Source: a bacterium | GTDB lineage: Bacteria; UBP15; UBA6099; DSWB01 | NCBI GenBank assembly: GCA_020061125.1 | Contig: JAGUYV010000452.1 | Coordinates: 1-33,568, forward strand | Length of the DNA: 33,568 nt | Reading direction: 5' to 3' | In this document: positions 2,627 to 8,077 of the stretch, piece by piece | Layout: each line of letters starts with the position of its first letter | Position numbering within the stretch: the stretch's first letter is position 1 | Notes under the pieces: model-generated | The model's input: only the letters and a program-made list of their open reading frames with translations | The model's database searches: none | Told to the model about the DNA's origin: nothing | Translations under genes and position numbers: made by a program

Positions 2627-3031
2627 ATGGGCGGTGAAAAAATTCGAGTGGTGATCGCCAAACCGGGCCTGGACGGGCACGACCGGGGCGCCAAGGTTGT
2701 GGCGCGCGCGCTGCGCGACGCGGGCATGGAGGTCATTTACCTGGGGCTGCACCAGACCGCGGAAAATATCGTGAACGCCGCCATCCAGGAAGACGCGGAC
2801 ATCATCGGTTTAAGTTCCCTGGCCGGCGCGCACATGACGCATTTCCCGCGCGTGCTCGATCTCCTCAAGCAGAACAACGCCGCGGACATCAAGGTGTTCG
2901 GCGGCGGCATCATCCCCGACGAGGACCGCGATCAATTGCTCGAACAGGGCGTGGCCATGCTTTTCGGCCCGGGCACGGACACCGAGCATATTGTGGATGA
3001 AGTGCGCCGCATGGCCGCGGAACGCAATTAA
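2627..3031 (+). CDS. Cobalamin-binding subunit of methylmalonyl-CoA mutase type (small, split subunit)
   Basis: This 134-residue protein is a stand-alone B12-binding domain of the type found at the C terminus of methylmalonyl-CoA mutase and related acyl-CoA mutases. The base-off/His-on motif DxHxxG is present as DGHDRG, with His18 as the expected lower cobalt ligand. The SxL motif (LSSLAG, about residues 62-67) and the GG motif (FGGGI, about 91-95) follow in order. GGAGG lies just before the start. A split subunit must pair with a separate catalytic (TIM-barrel) subunit, which is not in this window. With a sucC gene 5 kb away, a methylmalonyl-CoA/succinyl-CoA pathway is plausible but not shown. 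The DUF1285-like gene follows after 21 nt, probably in the same operon. Confidence 0.9.
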
Positions 3032-3517: not shown

Positions 3518-3568
3518 TGGATGAGCAATCAGCCGGAGAAATACCGGCGCTGCAATCTGCGAAATAAA

Positions 3569-3589
3569 AAATCCCCGTTGCGGGGATTT
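3569..3589 (+). terminator. Rho-independent terminator
   Basis: AAATCCCCG / CGGGGATTT forms a 9-bp stem with a 3-nt loop, followed by TCGTTTTCC. It sits about 50 nt after the DUF1285-like stop and ends the two-gene + strand operon. Apart from the weak 27-codon ORF described under findings, I see nothing in the remaining spacer to 3809. Confidence 0.75.
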
Positions 3590-3809
3590 CGTTTTCCATG
3601 CTTAACAGTGCCCTTGCAGGCCGGGATCGGTTCAATTCTGACTCGATGCTCCGTTATTTGCCTTTGGGCCGGGGTTTGGGGGCCGGGCGCCAGTCCATAT
3701 GTGTTGCCTCCACTGTGTTTTCAATTTCTGCATTCATTTTACGCCATGCAACAGCATTTGTCAAAATGATAAAAAAGCCGGATTATTGAAAAAGTCTGTT
3801 ATGGGAAAG

Positions 3810-4238
3810 TCATTCCCATTTCTTTGAAGTCACGCTGCCGGACGCAGAGTCGTATTCGTACAACAAGCCGTCAACGCAATAGCCGGAGATTACGAATTCG
3901 GTGTCGTTCATAAATTCCAGATAAGGGAATCCGTCCTCGACCCACAGGTTTTTGTCCGTGATCATGTTCTGCACGCCGGGTTGTTCTTGAGCCAGATCTT
4001 CGATGGTGTCCAGCGGTTGGTTCATGGAAATCCTGACTCTGGCGGTGGTTCCCAGGGCGTTGATAATGGTGTTGCATTTTGCGCCCAGAGCTTTCTGCTT
4101 GGACCCCTGCGCTTTTTTTGCGCCGCCGAGTACGCCTGCCTGTCGCATGATGAGAAAACCCACGGCGATCATAATGGCCATGGCCGCGAGCAGCCCGATC
4201 ATGGACATGCCGCGCTGGCTGCGGATTCGCAAAAACAT
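3810..4238 (-). CDS. Pseudopilin-like exported protein with atypical N terminus
   Basis: This 142-residue protein begins with a short basic leader (MFLRIRSQRG) followed directly by a hydrophobic helix MSMIGLLAAMAIMIAVGFLI, the layout of a type IV pilin or type II secretion pseudopilin cut after Gly10. The expected Glu at position 5 of the mature helix is replaced by Gly (MSMIG instead of FTLIE). The C-terminal region holds two cysteines (AKCNTI and GYCVDG), which could form a disulfide. ATG 4238 is chosen because GGAGG sits 6 nt before it; the track start at 4250 overlaps that ribosome site. The gene follows the lipoprotein gene by 25 nt and is the last of the remB operon. No pilus assembly genes are nearby, so the pilin relationship rests on the N terminus only. 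Confidence 0.55.
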   Translation of the reverse strand: MFLRIRSQRGMSMIGLLAAMAIMIAVGFLIMRQAGVLGGAKKAQGSKQKALGAKCNTIINALGTTARVRISMNQPLDTIEDLAQEQPGVQNMITDKNLWVEDGFPYLEFMNDTEFVISGYCVDGLLYEYDSASGSVTSKKWE

Positions 4239-4263
4239 GGTCGCCTCCATCGCGCCGGCCGGA

Positions 4264-5628
4264 TCATGCGCCGGGCATGGTGTTCAGCCGGTCCCGGTAA
4301 TACGCCTCAATGGCTTCTAGATTGTTCCAGCCGTATCCGGCTATCAGGTTCCGGACATTGATGGCGAACAGCTCCTGAAGGGGCGTGATGCGGACATACG
4401 GATCATACGGCTCTCCGGCTGTCTGGTCTGGTGTGTCGTCGAGGCCGATGACTTCATTGAGATACTGAAGAAGATCCTTCTGGAGCGCGGTGTATTCCGC
4501 GGAAGCGGGCAGAGCGGATTGCGCGCCCTGCCCTGCCACGCTTTTGGTGATGCCCGCAGTGGCGAGGTCCACGGCGAATGTGCGCTCGGCGCTGCCGTCG
4601 TTGCGCACATTCACAGTGATGGCGTTGCCGTCTCTTGTTATGGAGGTGTAGCGGTCAAAGCCCTGGCTGTCCGGATCATAAGTTATGAATCGCTGAATGG
4701 CGTTCTGCGAGGGATCGAGAAGAGCGATTGTGGCGTCGTATGCGCCGCTGCCGGTGAAGTATTTCATGTATTGCAGCGCCAGGAGGTAAGCGATGCCGCC
4801 CGTAACCGCGCCGTCGGAGCTGTACAGTTCCGAGTATTTCATGCCCCCGGCGTCCCGCCACAATCGGATGGTTCCGTTGTCGCGAATGTACAGATCCCCG
4901 TTGTTTTCGCCGGTATAGAAGCGGAAGAACCGGTCGCCGTCTTCCATGCACTCGCGGTTGCATTCCACATGAATCCGAGTCTCGGTGTAATCGCCATGAT
5001 CGTCCGTTCCGGATGTGGTCGTGATTTTGTTGTAATGCTTCTCCTTAGCGTCCAGAGATCCGAAAATGGAGAATTCTCGCAGAGACAGGGATTGCGCAAG
5101 TTTCAGCCCGTAGGGGCTGGCGTGTTCGAGGGTTGCGCACACCTTCTGCTGTACGGCGTTGTTCCACGAGGGCAGGGGCTGGTCCAGATTGCCTCCCGTG
5201 TAAACGGCGAGGCTGCTGCCGTCCAGTCCAGTGCCCGCATAGCTCAAGCACAGGGTTGCGCCGCCGTTGGCGAATTGAATGCCGTCAGGCTGTATGTCCA
5301 CCACGGTTCCTGCGATTCCTCCGGGCCTGCCGGACACATAGAATTTTTCATACAGGGTCACGATTTGCGTGGCGGCCAGGGATGCGGTGAGGCTTGCCGA
5401 TGCGCTTGAGAGTGTGGCGCCGTACGGCCCCACGGTCGCGGATGCCGCGGGACGCAGCACACAACCCGCGCCGCAAGAGGCCGCAGCCGTGTTTGCGGAT
5501 GATGCGGCTGTGCCCCCGCCGCCACCCCCGCCGCAGCCGGACAGCATAGCAAAGCCGATCAGCAACAGAGCCGCCCATGCCAGGGGTTTGTTCAATCGAT
5601 ACCGCCGGTTGTGAGGTGTGTGCGTCAT
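4264..5628 (-). CDS. Predicted lipoprotein with poly-glycine linker, unknown family
   Basis: This 454-residue protein has a signal peptide ending in a lipobox, FAMLSGC, with the lipidated Cys at about residue 32. A run of seven glycines and an Ala/Ser-rich stretch follow, probably a flexible tether to the membrane. The rest is a soluble domain with two early cysteines (CGAGC) and further ones in CLSYAG, KVCATL and the pair CNREC. I recognise no family. The track start at 5658 is a TTG without a ribosome site; ATG 5628 places the basic n-region correctly and has a weak GGA upstream. It lies 52 nt after sppA and 25 nt before the pseudopilin-like gene, so probably one transcript. A surface or periplasmic role is inferred from the lipobox only. 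Confidence 0.7.
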   Translation of the reverse strand: MTHTPHNRRYRLNKPLAWAALLLIGFAMLSGCGGGGGGGTAASSANTAAASCGAGCVLRPAASATVGPYGATLSSASASLTASLAATQIVTLYEKFYVSGRPGGIAGTVVDIQPDGIQFANGGATLCLSYAGTGLDGSSLAVYTGGNLDQPLPSWNNAVQQKVCATLEHASPYGLKLAQSLSLREFSIFGSLDAKEKHYNKITTTSGTDDHGDYTETRIHVECNRECMEDGDRFFRFYTGENNGDLYIRDNGTIRLWRDAGGMKYSELYSSDGAVTGGIAYLLALQYMKYFTGSGAYDATIALLDPSQNAIQRFITYDPDSQGFDRYTSITRDGNAITVNVRNDGSAERTFAVDLATAGITKSVAGQGAQSALPASAEYTALQKDLLQYLNEVIGLDDTPDQTAGEPYDPYVRITPLQELFAINVRNLIAGYGWNNLEAIEAYYRDRLNTMPGA

Positions 5629-5680
5629 GCGTTTTCCAAATCTTCTAATAATGTTCAAACGCGCGCCCGGCGCGCAGCCG

Positions 5681-6634
5681 TCAGTGCGGGGCCAGTTCGG
5701 TGACCAGAAGGAGATTCTGAACCATGGAATCCAGGCGGCCCGCAGTGCGCGGGTCCAGAGGCATGCCCGCGATTTTCGAGGCCGCTGTCTGGAAGAATGG
5801 GAAAAAGTCGTCCTCTTTGAGATTGATAAGTTCGGGTTCGCCTTTGATGCGCGCCTTGCGCGCGGCGTAATCCACGGCGTCGTGGTAGGTTCCGATCCGG
5901 TCCACCAGCTTGATCTGTTTGGCCTGCTCGCCGGTGAAGATCATGCCCGTGGCGTACTCGCGGATGTCGCGTTCCTTGACGCCCCGGCCCGCGGCCACAT
6001 CGCGGATGAACTGCGCGTGGATGTTGTCCACGGATTCCTGCAGCAAAGCGCGCTCTTCCTCGGAAATGGGGCGGAACGGTGAGCCGATATCCTTGTGCTT
6101 GCCGGCCTTGATGGTCATGTCCTCCACGCCGTATTCTTTCATGAGGCCGTACCAGTTGAGTGTGCCCATGCGCACGCCGATGCTGCCGGTGAGGGTGGAC
6201 GGATTGGCGAACACGGTTTCACCCGCGGCGGCGATGTAATACCCGCCCGAGGCGGCCACATCGCCCATGGACACCACGATGGGCTTGCCTTTCCCGCGCA
6301 TGGCCATGACCTGGCTGTAGATTTCATACGATCCTGCGGGACTGCCGCCGGGGCTGTTGACATGCAGCAGAATGGCCTTGATGCTTTTGTCTTCCATACC
6401 CTTTTTCAAGGCTCGCACGATGGAGTCGGATCCGGTCGTGCTTTCCGAGAACGGGCCGCCCGTGCTGCCGCCGCTGTGGATCACGCCCGAGATCTCGACC
6501 ACTCCGATCTTGCCGCCCTTTTTGATTTTCGTGCCTTTGAGAAACGCGGACTGCACGAGCACGATAAACACCAGGAGCATGAAAAAGCAGAGCACGATGA
6601 CTCCGCAGCCGAGGAACAGGTGTTTGGGTTTCAT
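5681..6634 (-). CDS. sppA: Signal peptide peptidase SppA (short, ~36K type)
   Basis: This 317-residue membrane-anchored serine protease has one N-terminal transmembrane helix (about residues 7-30) and a ClpP/crotonase-like protease domain in the periplasm. The Ser-Lys dyad can be placed: Ser129 in DVAASGGYYI and Lys181 in AGKHKDIGSP, 52 residues apart as in Bacillus SppA. The family marks VNSPGG and TGSIGV are both present. The length matches the short single-domain SppA rather than the 67K tandem form. SppA degrades signal peptides left in the membrane after cleavage. It follows amrS by 40 nt in the same direction. AGGGG lies 10 nt before the ATG. Confidence 0.93.
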   Translation of the reverse strand: MKPKHLFLGCGVIVLCFFMLLVFIVLVQSAFLKGTKIKKGGKIGVVEISGVIHSGGSTGGPFSESTTGSDSIVRALKKGMEDKSIKAILLHVNSPGGSPAGSYEIYSQVMAMRGKGKPIVVSMGDVAASGGYYIAAAGETVFANPSTLTGSIGVRMGTLNWYGLMKEYGVEDMTIKAGKHKDIGSPFRPISEEERALLQESVDNIHAQFIRDVAAGRGVKERDIREYATGMIFTGEQAKQIKLVDRIGTYHDAVDYAARKARIKGEPELINLKEDDFFPFFQTAASKIAGMPLDPRTAGRLDSMVQNLLLVTELAPH

Positions 6635-6674
6635 TGGTGTCGCCCCTTTCGGGTCTGTGGTGCAAATTGCGGAA

Positions 6675-7682
6675 TCAGGCCGCGCCCGCGATGCGCGCGC
6701 CGCATGCGGCGCAGCGCATTCCTTGTTTGAGGCCGGACAGATCGGTCCTGTATCCTGATCGCGCGATAACGGTCGTGCCGCATTCCGGGCAAAGCGTGCG
6801 GCTGTGCGAGTCGTCGCTCATATTGCCCAGATACACATAATTCAGATGTTTTTTCGCAATGCCGTGCGCGCGCTCCATGGTGGCCGGAGGCGTGGCGGCG
6901 CGCTCCATCTGGAAATTGGGAAAGTAGCGCGACAGGTGCAGGGGGATGTCCGGGGAAACGGACGCGAGCCACGACGCAGCTTCCTCGATTTCTTCATCGC
7001 TGTCATTCAGGCCCGGAACAATGAGCGTGGTGATTTCCACCCAGATCCCGGCTTTCACGGCGGCGGCTATGGTGTTTTTCACAGGCTCCAGCCGCGCTCC
7101 GCAATAAGTTTTGTAGAAATCATCCGAAAAGCTCTTGAGGTCTATGTTCAATGCTGTGACATGCGGCGCAAGCTCCGCGAACGGCTCGGGATTGATGAAC
7201 CCGTTGGAAACAAGCACGGTTGCAAACCCCTCGGATTTCAGGAGCGGAGCGCAATCACGGATGAACTCGAACCAGATCATCGGCTCGTTGTAGGTGAAGG
7301 CCACACCGGTGTTGTCCGGGCCGCAGTTCCGCGCTTCGCGCACCAGTTGCTCGGGCGTTATGGCGCGCGTGGCCGCATTGGCCTGGGAGATGCTCCAGTT
7401 CTGGCAGAACGAGCAGCGCAGATTGCATCCGAAGCCGCCGATGGAAAGAATCGCGGTTCCCGGATGGAAGTGGTAGAGGGGTTTCTTTTCGATGGGGTCC
7501 ACGGCCAGAGATGTGAAACGGCCGTAATTGATGAGCCGCAGTTTGCGGCCTTCGAGGGTGCGCGTGCGGCATTTGCCGGTTTTGCCCTGTGTGATGATGC
7601 ATGCCTGCGGACAGAGCCGGCAACCTGCGTCTCCGTTATCAAGGATTTTGTAATGCGCGGCTTCCACGCCGGTGTGGTCCAT
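6675..7682 (-). CDS. amrS: AmmeMemoRadiSam system radical SAM enzyme AmrS
   Basis: This 335-residue radical SAM enzyme has the cluster motif CNLRCSFC (Cys86, Cys90, Cys93). It has an N-terminal cysteine-rich block CRLCPQAC...GKTGKC typical of AmrS, and a SAM-binding TYNEP region followed by a DLKSF strand. The C terminus has a zinc-ribbon-like pair CPEC...CAAC. AmrS belongs to the AmmeMemoRadiSam set, whose other members are Memo-like and AMMECR1-like proteins; neither gene occurs in this window. Its ATG overlaps the stop of remB (TGATG), which points to translational coupling, and a GAGGA inside remB acts as its ribosome site. The family call is confident; the reaction is not assigned here. 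Confidence 0.92.
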   Translation of the reverse strand: MDHTGVEAAHYKILDNGDAGCRLCPQACIITQGKTGKCRTRTLEGRKLRLINYGRFTSLAVDPIEKKPLYHFHPGTAILSIGGFGCNLRCSFCQNWSISQANAATRAITPEQLVREARNCGPDNTGVAFTYNEPMIWFEFIRDCAPLLKSEGFATVLVSNGFINPEPFAELAPHVTALNIDLKSFSDDFYKTYCGARLEPVKNTIAAAVKAGIWVEITTLIVPGLNDSDEEIEEAASWLASVSPDIPLHLSRYFPNFQMERAATPPATMERAHGIAKKHLNYVYLGNMSDDSHSRTLCPECGTTVIARSGYRTDLSGLKQGMRCAACGARIAGAA

Positions 7683-8002
7683 CAGGCATCGTCCTCTGAT
7701 GCATCGCCGATCTGCGCCATGGCCGCGCTGTACGGCTGGCGCGAACTGTCCAGTGTGTCGCGCACATCTTCGCGCGAGCGCGCCAGCAGGGTGGCCGACG
7801 ATATGCGCGTTATGAAGGTTTTGCTGTCTGTGAGGATGATTGTGGATTCCTTGCCCTCGGAGATGTCTTCGATGTTCCCGCGCTGGCGGATTTCGTTCAG
7901 AAACCGGCGTCCCTTGGTGTCTTCCTGTAACGAGGCCACATTGAAAATGCCGATTATTTCGCTGCTTCTAAGCAATACATTGTTGCCGATGTGCAGAAAC
8001 AT
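7682..8002 (-). CDS. RemB/YaaB-like extracellular matrix regulator family protein (DUF370)
   Basis: This 106-residue protein starts MFLHIGNNVLLRSSEIIGIF, the standard opening of the RemB branch of the DUF370 family, and continues with TIILTDSKTFITRISSATL, which matches the family's conserved second strand. In Bacillus, RemA and RemB affect biofilm matrix genes; outside Firmicutes the role is largely untested. The start is ATG 8002, with GGAGG 7 nt upstream; the track's 8050 start adds 16 unrelated residues. The last ~25 residues are an acidic tail not expected in the core domain. It is the first gene of a probable operon with amrS, sppA, the lipoprotein and the pseudopilin-like gene, and has its own promoter. 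Confidence 0.85.
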   Translation of the reverse strand: MFLHIGNNVLLRSSEIIGIFNVASLQEDTKGRRFLNEIRQRGNIEDISEGKESTIILTDSKTFITRISSATLLARSREDVRDTLDSSRQPYSAAMAQIGDASEDDA

Positions 8003-8049: not shown

Positions 8050-8077
8050 ATTATAGCGGATGCCGCGCCGGGGGCAA
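8050..8077 (-). promoter_or_regulatory. Candidate promoter of the remB-amrS operon
   Basis: On the minus strand, TTGCCC (8077-8072) and TATAAT (8055-8050) are separated by 16 bp. The -10 box is perfect. The -35 box begins just after the hairpin at 8099-8079, so the sucC terminator and this promoter abut. The leader before remB is about 40 nt. Confidence 0.55.

Follow-up and report, generated by a model that had tools for sequence, protein, structure and literature searches.

The genes remB, amrS and sppA constitute a single operon that is fixed in the bacterial order to which the analysed DNA belongs, a conclusion well supported by comparative evidence. We studied a stretch of 33,568 nucleotides, hereafter the window (GenBank assembly GCA_020061125.1, contig JAGUYV010000452.1; GTDB lineage Bacteria; UBP15; UBA6099; DSWB01), in which this triad encodes a RemA/DUF370 family protein, an AmmeMemoRadiSam radical SAM enzyme and a membrane-anchored signal peptide peptidase. 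The families are already known, and it is their gene context that is new. We propose that the triad is probably a co-expressed operon of envelope growth, in which roles can be suggested for AmrS, RemB and SppA. Radical SAM enzymes of the AmrS type are widespread in bacteria and archaea, and our literature search found no report of its substrate or of the mechanism of the AmmeMemoRadiSam system. By placing AmrS and RemB together with a membrane protease, and with cell-shape genes in two genera, the conserved operon directs attention to the envelope; this context is the first hint tying this orphan AmrS to envelope building.

Organization of the locus

The features of the locus, in the order in which the operon would be read, are as follows.

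8050..8077, minus strand: promoter-like site TTGCCC-16-TATAAT, about 50 nt upstream of remB
7682..8002, minus strand: remB, RemB-type member of the RemA/DUF370 family, 106 aa
6675..7682, minus strand: amrS, cytosolic-type AmmeMemoRadiSam radical SAM enzyme, 335 aa
5681..6634, minus strand: sppA, membrane-anchored signal peptide peptidase, 317 aa
4264..5628, minus strand: lipoprotein gene (ATG 5628), lipobox LSGC and poly-Gly linker; attachment lineage-specific
3810..4238, minus strand: pilin-like gene (ATG 4238), prepilin-type N-terminus without Glu5; attachment lineage-specific
3568..3590, minus strand: terminator-like hairpin, bidirectional, 10 pairs, downstream of the operon

The remB and amrS genes of the window overlap by one base (TGATG), and gaps of 40, 52 and 25 nt follow between amrS and sppA, sppA and the lipoprotein gene, and the lipoprotein and pilin-like genes, the last gap being 13 if the alternative pilin-like start at ATG 4250 is used. 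An earlier sequence-only reading had reported this overlap, these gaps and the promoter-like site before remB, all of which we could confirm on the sequence. We also looked for the internal promoter or terminator before sppA that would have spoken against its proposal, and a signal scan of the window found neither in the amrS-sppA interval. The count of promoter- and terminator-like sites in the window equals the shuffled expectation, and each site alone is weak. A single start before remB is credible because a promoter-like site recurs there in another genus, four genomes of which (L038, L039, L042, L043) possess a better version, TTGACT-17-TATAAT, at the equivalent position. The hairpin at 3568-3590, whose 10 pairs are bordered by T tracts on both sides, could be the end of the operon.

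Downstream of the operon, a near-consensus promoter, TTGACA-17-TAAAAT (3736-3764, minus strand), is aimed at the terminator-like hairpin 150 nt further. A small RNA running from this site (3764-3736) to the terminator (3590-3568) was considered and rejected, its fold being no better than that of shuffled sequences (z -0.28) and belonging to no Rfam family; an Rfam scan of the window returned no match. The neighborhood also contains genes for a free-standing B12-binding subunit of the methylmalonyl-CoA-mutase type (2627-3031), a DUF2851 protein (597-2201) and a YjfB-type putative motility protein (2272-2460), which lie near a convergent DUF1285 gene.

Conservation of the triad

Our sample of the order comprised seven genomes including the window's own (G000-G006), which represent four genera and three families, four of the seven being close relatives within one genus; all others among the 60 nearest genomes lie beyond the order and are listed as "same domain" only. 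In all seven, remB is found directly before, and sppA directly behind, the operon-type amrS on the same strand. Outside the order, neither RemB nor SppA was found beside AmrS at any of 105 loci (80 from named GTDB genomes and 25 from other genomes). The remB-amrS and amrS-sppA gaps are -1 and 40 in the window, -4 and -4 in G001, -4 and 11 in G005, 37 and 1 in three genomes of genus g3, and 16 and 1 in the fourth. The window proteins share 55-58% (AmrS) and 43-46% (SppA) identity with their relatives in the order, and the triad is kept between genera while the flanking genes differ. Hence, on the gene-order comparison suggested in the earlier reading, conservation reaches beyond the closest strains, to families at 55-58% AmrS identity.

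The same comparison restricts the operon to its first three genes. The sequence-only reading had placed all five genes in one envelope-modification unit, to which their short gaps, common strand, the lack of a terminator in the gaps and the terminator-like hairpin after the fifth gene are favorable. However, none of the other order genomes has lipoprotein or pilin-like genes attached behind the triad, and the one clear relative of the lipoprotein, in G001 (43-44% identity), is encoded at a locus without the triad, followed by genes for a purine/uridine phosphorylase and a pilin-like protein. We therefore consider the five-gene unit highly improbable: of the earlier proposal, remB-amrS-sppA stands as one conserved operon, and gene order in the order genomes speaks against membership of the last two genes in the conserved unit.

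Neither of these two proteins matched Pfam or NCBIfam. The lipoprotein has a signal peptide ending in an LSGC lipobox followed by a poly-Gly stretch, and the Cys and poly-Gly are kept in the G001 relative; its structure model, built from two sequences, has a pLDDT of 36. The N-terminus of the pilin-like protein, RG-MSMIG, presents the Gly and the hydrophobic stretch and lacks Glu5, which is likewise absent from GspK-type minor pseudopilins. Its model (pLDDT 76) consists of a long N-terminal helix and a small beta domain, and the best pilin match in a Foldseek search, 4bhr, has a probability of 0.82 but an E value of 0.63, making it weak. Relatives at 22-27% identity stand alone beside an efflux operon in G002, G003 and G004, and the G001 pilin-like protein is 18% identical to that of the window (BLAST E 0.09). 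Possibly, the lipoprotein and pilin-like genes are an old pair of their own.

Continuation into cell-shape genes

A link with the envelope is suggested by what follows the triad in two of the four genera. In G001 a single strand carries remB-amrS-sppA-maf-mreB-mreC-mreD-PBP2-secG, with the first joins overlapping by 4 nt (maf and mreB were confirmed by Pfam, and the later genes were named from sequence and position rather than by profile), and G005 shows remB-amrS-sppA-maf-mreB up to the contig end. Behind the triad in genus g3 stands an alpha/beta hydrolase gene, with maf-mreB elsewhere, and the window genome has maf-mreB-mreC-PBP2-secG at a separate locus. The simplest history would be an ancestral long operon in the order that was split in the window lineage and in g3; given a sample of four genera, the triad and maf-mreB may instead have been joined twice. 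Because the triad runs into maf-mreB in two of four genera, it belongs by context to envelope growth. The envelope connection of the earlier reading thus gains independent support from the genes that follow the triad, maf-mreBCD in G001 and maf-mreB in G005, even as its five-gene envelope-modification unit falls away.

SppA as a membrane protease

The sppA product scores 214.6 bits against TIGR00706 (cut-off 155) and combines an S49 domain with an N-terminal membrane anchor, the latter read from the sequence. The Ser-Lys dyad, S129 and K181, is invariant across the order. In an alignment with the Bacillus subtilis SppA (3RST), K181 falls opposite an alanine of the crystal protein, the site of the catalytic lysine mutated there. 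Each genome of the order has one further S49 peptidase; in the presence of this second enzyme, the operon SppA need not be the housekeeping one. Taken with the maf-mreB continuation, SppA makes a role in envelope growth a reasonable inference.

RemB and its probable relocation

Two RemA-family proteins are encoded in each genome of the order, namely, the operon protein and a much stronger RemA-type match, whose gene precedes gmk, then rpoZ and coaBC where the contig allows (G000, G001, G003 and G005 examined). In profile comparison the operon protein matches RemB, not RemA: it scores 53.3 bits against NF046065 (cut-off 40; 51-59 bits for its relatives in the order) and 28.6 bits against PF04025. 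Detectable RemB outside the order was confined to 3 of 283 genomes, three unrelated ones (L221:4210-4458, L222:776-1060, L223:5426-5662), and all three copies are in the replication cluster, in the contexts recF-remB-gyrB, dnaA-dnaN-recF-remB at a contig end, and directly before gyrB. All seven copies in the order precede amrS, rather than lying between recF/dnaN and gyrB, and remB is absent from the dnaA-dnaN-DUF721-like locus of G001. It thus appears that remB was relocated to the amrS-sppA operon early, at the root of the order.

RemA arginines are required for DNA binding, and RemB has been described as little understood (PMC8481266). In our alignment, the GKESTI of the window RemB (GKESTI or GKQTSI across the order) stands opposite GRRTRA of the genome's own RemA, such that arginines 50 and 51 (and 53) of the outer ring face of RemA are absent from the operon RemB. 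With these residues missing, a RemA-like DNA-binding activator seems the less likely function. The earlier label of a DUF370 regulator thus holds as to the RemA/DUF370 family; being of a RemB type without the DNA-contacting arginines of RemA, the protein is at most a putative regulator.

The contexts of RemB and AmrS outside the order bear on an alternative reading, in which the triad is conserved only through a shared growth-linked expression level while RemB, AmrS and SppA perform unrelated housekeeping. Operon conservation can reflect shared expression without a shared pathway, and bacterial housekeeping operons often combine unrelated genes. Moreover, RemB elsewhere is a neighbor of the replication genes recF and gyrB instead of AmrS or SppA, and AmrS elsewhere has many unrelated neighbors. 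However, the triad is intact in every genome of the order despite changed flanks, and RemB seems to have been brought into it from another conserved site, which makes this reading a rather unlikely one in our assessment.

AmrS and its potential partners

The amrS product scores 334.5 bits against TIGR04337 (cut-off 220), and its CxxxCxxC motif (C86, C90, C93), along with four N-terminal and four C-terminal cysteines, is invariant in the seven genomes; a GTDB scan found no AmrS with more than 54% identity to that of the window. As the earlier reading had observed, neither Memo nor AMMECR1 is encoded beside amrS in the window, and this is also true of every relative in the order. Its premise that AmrS normally sits near those genes did not bear out: in a sample picked by likeness to the window AmrS, which is not a census, either gene was within 3 kb in just 26 of 80 and 6 of 25 loci. 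The local absence is an ordinary one, since most surveyed AmrS loci are without Memo and AMMECR1 within that distance. Following up the suggestion that homologues be located, we found two Memo genes and one AMMECR1 gene on other contigs of the window genome. One Memo is of the cytosolic type (C360), and the AMMECR1 protein (181 aa; C371) has no signal.

In a quick tree of 118 AmrS proteins, the seven operon copies form one group (support 92) beside copies from Selenomonas and Clostridia, and these nearest outside genes mostly adjoin AMMECR1. A second AmrS of the order genomes falls into a separate group (support 98); five of its six copies have a twin-arginine-like signal, and the sixth, that of the window genome, ends at a contig end. 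G001 and G002 encode a Memo-AMMECR1 fusion protein with a lipoprotein-type signal, probably the partner of the Tat-exported second AmrS. A separate Memo of one domain, with no obvious signal, is also encoded in G002, G005 and G006. From this distribution, there would seem to be an exported set, composed of Tat-AmrS and the lipoprotein Memo-AMMECR1, alongside a cytosolic set; the operon AmrS may be a member of the latter, possibly together with the cytosolic Memo.

One possibility, then, is that the operon AmrS serves a cytosolic AmmeMemoRadiSam system with Memo and AMMECR1 acting in trans. This would be compatible with the operon reading, as it concerns the enzyme only. The cytosolic-type Memo and signal-less AMMECR1 of the window genome and the AMMECR1-adjoining outside relatives speak for it, whereas the probable pairing of the second AmrS with the G001 and G002 fusions speaks against it. 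Further, searches of G003 (92% complete) and G004 (67%) turned up neither Memo nor AMMECR1, and both genomes retain the triad and both AmrS proteins; this is only a hint of AmrS independence, as incompleteness could explain the absence. On balance, service in trans is a serious possibility that we place somewhat short of an even chance.

Several further observations concern this family. The Tat-signal second copies (L054, L055-L058) and lipoprotein Memo-AMMECR1 fusions (L239:3065-4732, L240:3196-4890) in one order amount to an AmmeMemoRadiSam set that seems to be extracytoplasmic, in a place where S-adenosylmethionine would be unexpected; in G007 (L072), a Tat-AmrS is likewise near a lipoprotein-type Memo-AMMECR1 protein. 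At L245:3580-4815 and L035:4516-6165, a Memo domain comes with an N-terminal stretch weakly resembling PqqD (E 0.21), and about 260 additional N-terminal residues (in an open frame) that belong to no family are present on the window genome's second Memo. Outside the order, in several phyla, AmrS is recurrently beside ApbE-, NusG-II- and polyprenyl-synthesis-like genes, so named from sequence, not profile (L046, L052, L066, L083, L092, L093).

A model for the operon

Taking these findings together, we favor the triad as an operon of envelope growth, which might function as follows. One sigma-70-type promoter before remB would read remB, amrS and sppA, whose genes overlap or are closely spaced, and in two of the four genera the mRNA would extend into maf-mreB of the elongation machinery (with mreCD, PBP2 and secG in G001). 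SppA would clear signal-peptide remnants and damaged membrane proteins under conditions of high export and wall growth. The cytosolic AmrS would install a radical-SAM modification on some substrate, whether aided by the unlinked cytosolic Memo or acting without it, and RemB, as a small protein of the RemA fold, might be a scaffold or sensor instead of a DNA-binding activator like RemA. In the window genome, the lipoprotein and pilin-like genes are probably on the same transcript, albeit outside the conserved unit.

A stronger version would unite the three proteins in one pathway, with AmrS modifying a membrane or envelope substrate under a RemB ring, SppA processing it and the whole coupled to MreB-driven elongation. 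We regard this as distinctly unlikely, but if true, RemB would be a non-DNA-binding controller of AmrS.

Comparison with known systems

Among known systems, the AmmeMemoRadiSam system shares with the operon an AmrS well over the TIGR04337 cut-off with its CxxxCxxC motif; the locus differs in being without Memo and AMMECR1 and in accompanying AmrS with RemB and SppA. The RemB proteins of Bacillota (dnaA-dnaN-recF-remB-gyrB) are similarly over the NF046065 cut-off, and the outside RemB proteins, like those of the order, have no arginine pair at the RemA arginine positions. However, remB of the order resides in the amrS-sppA operon and encodes a longer and variable tail. The SppA closely follows the Bacillus subtilis type (3RST), with one membrane anchor, an S49 domain, the Ser-Lys dyad and a half-size subunit, differing in its operon partners only. 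The pilin-like protein recalls type IV pilins and minor pseudopilins in the Gly before its hydrophobic N-terminal stretch and in its modelled long helix and small beta domain, but it is without Glu5 and a family match, and its structural matches are weak. Finally, G001 and G005 have the maf-mreBCD cell-shape operon directly joined to the triad, whereas the two lie apart in genus g3 and the window genome.
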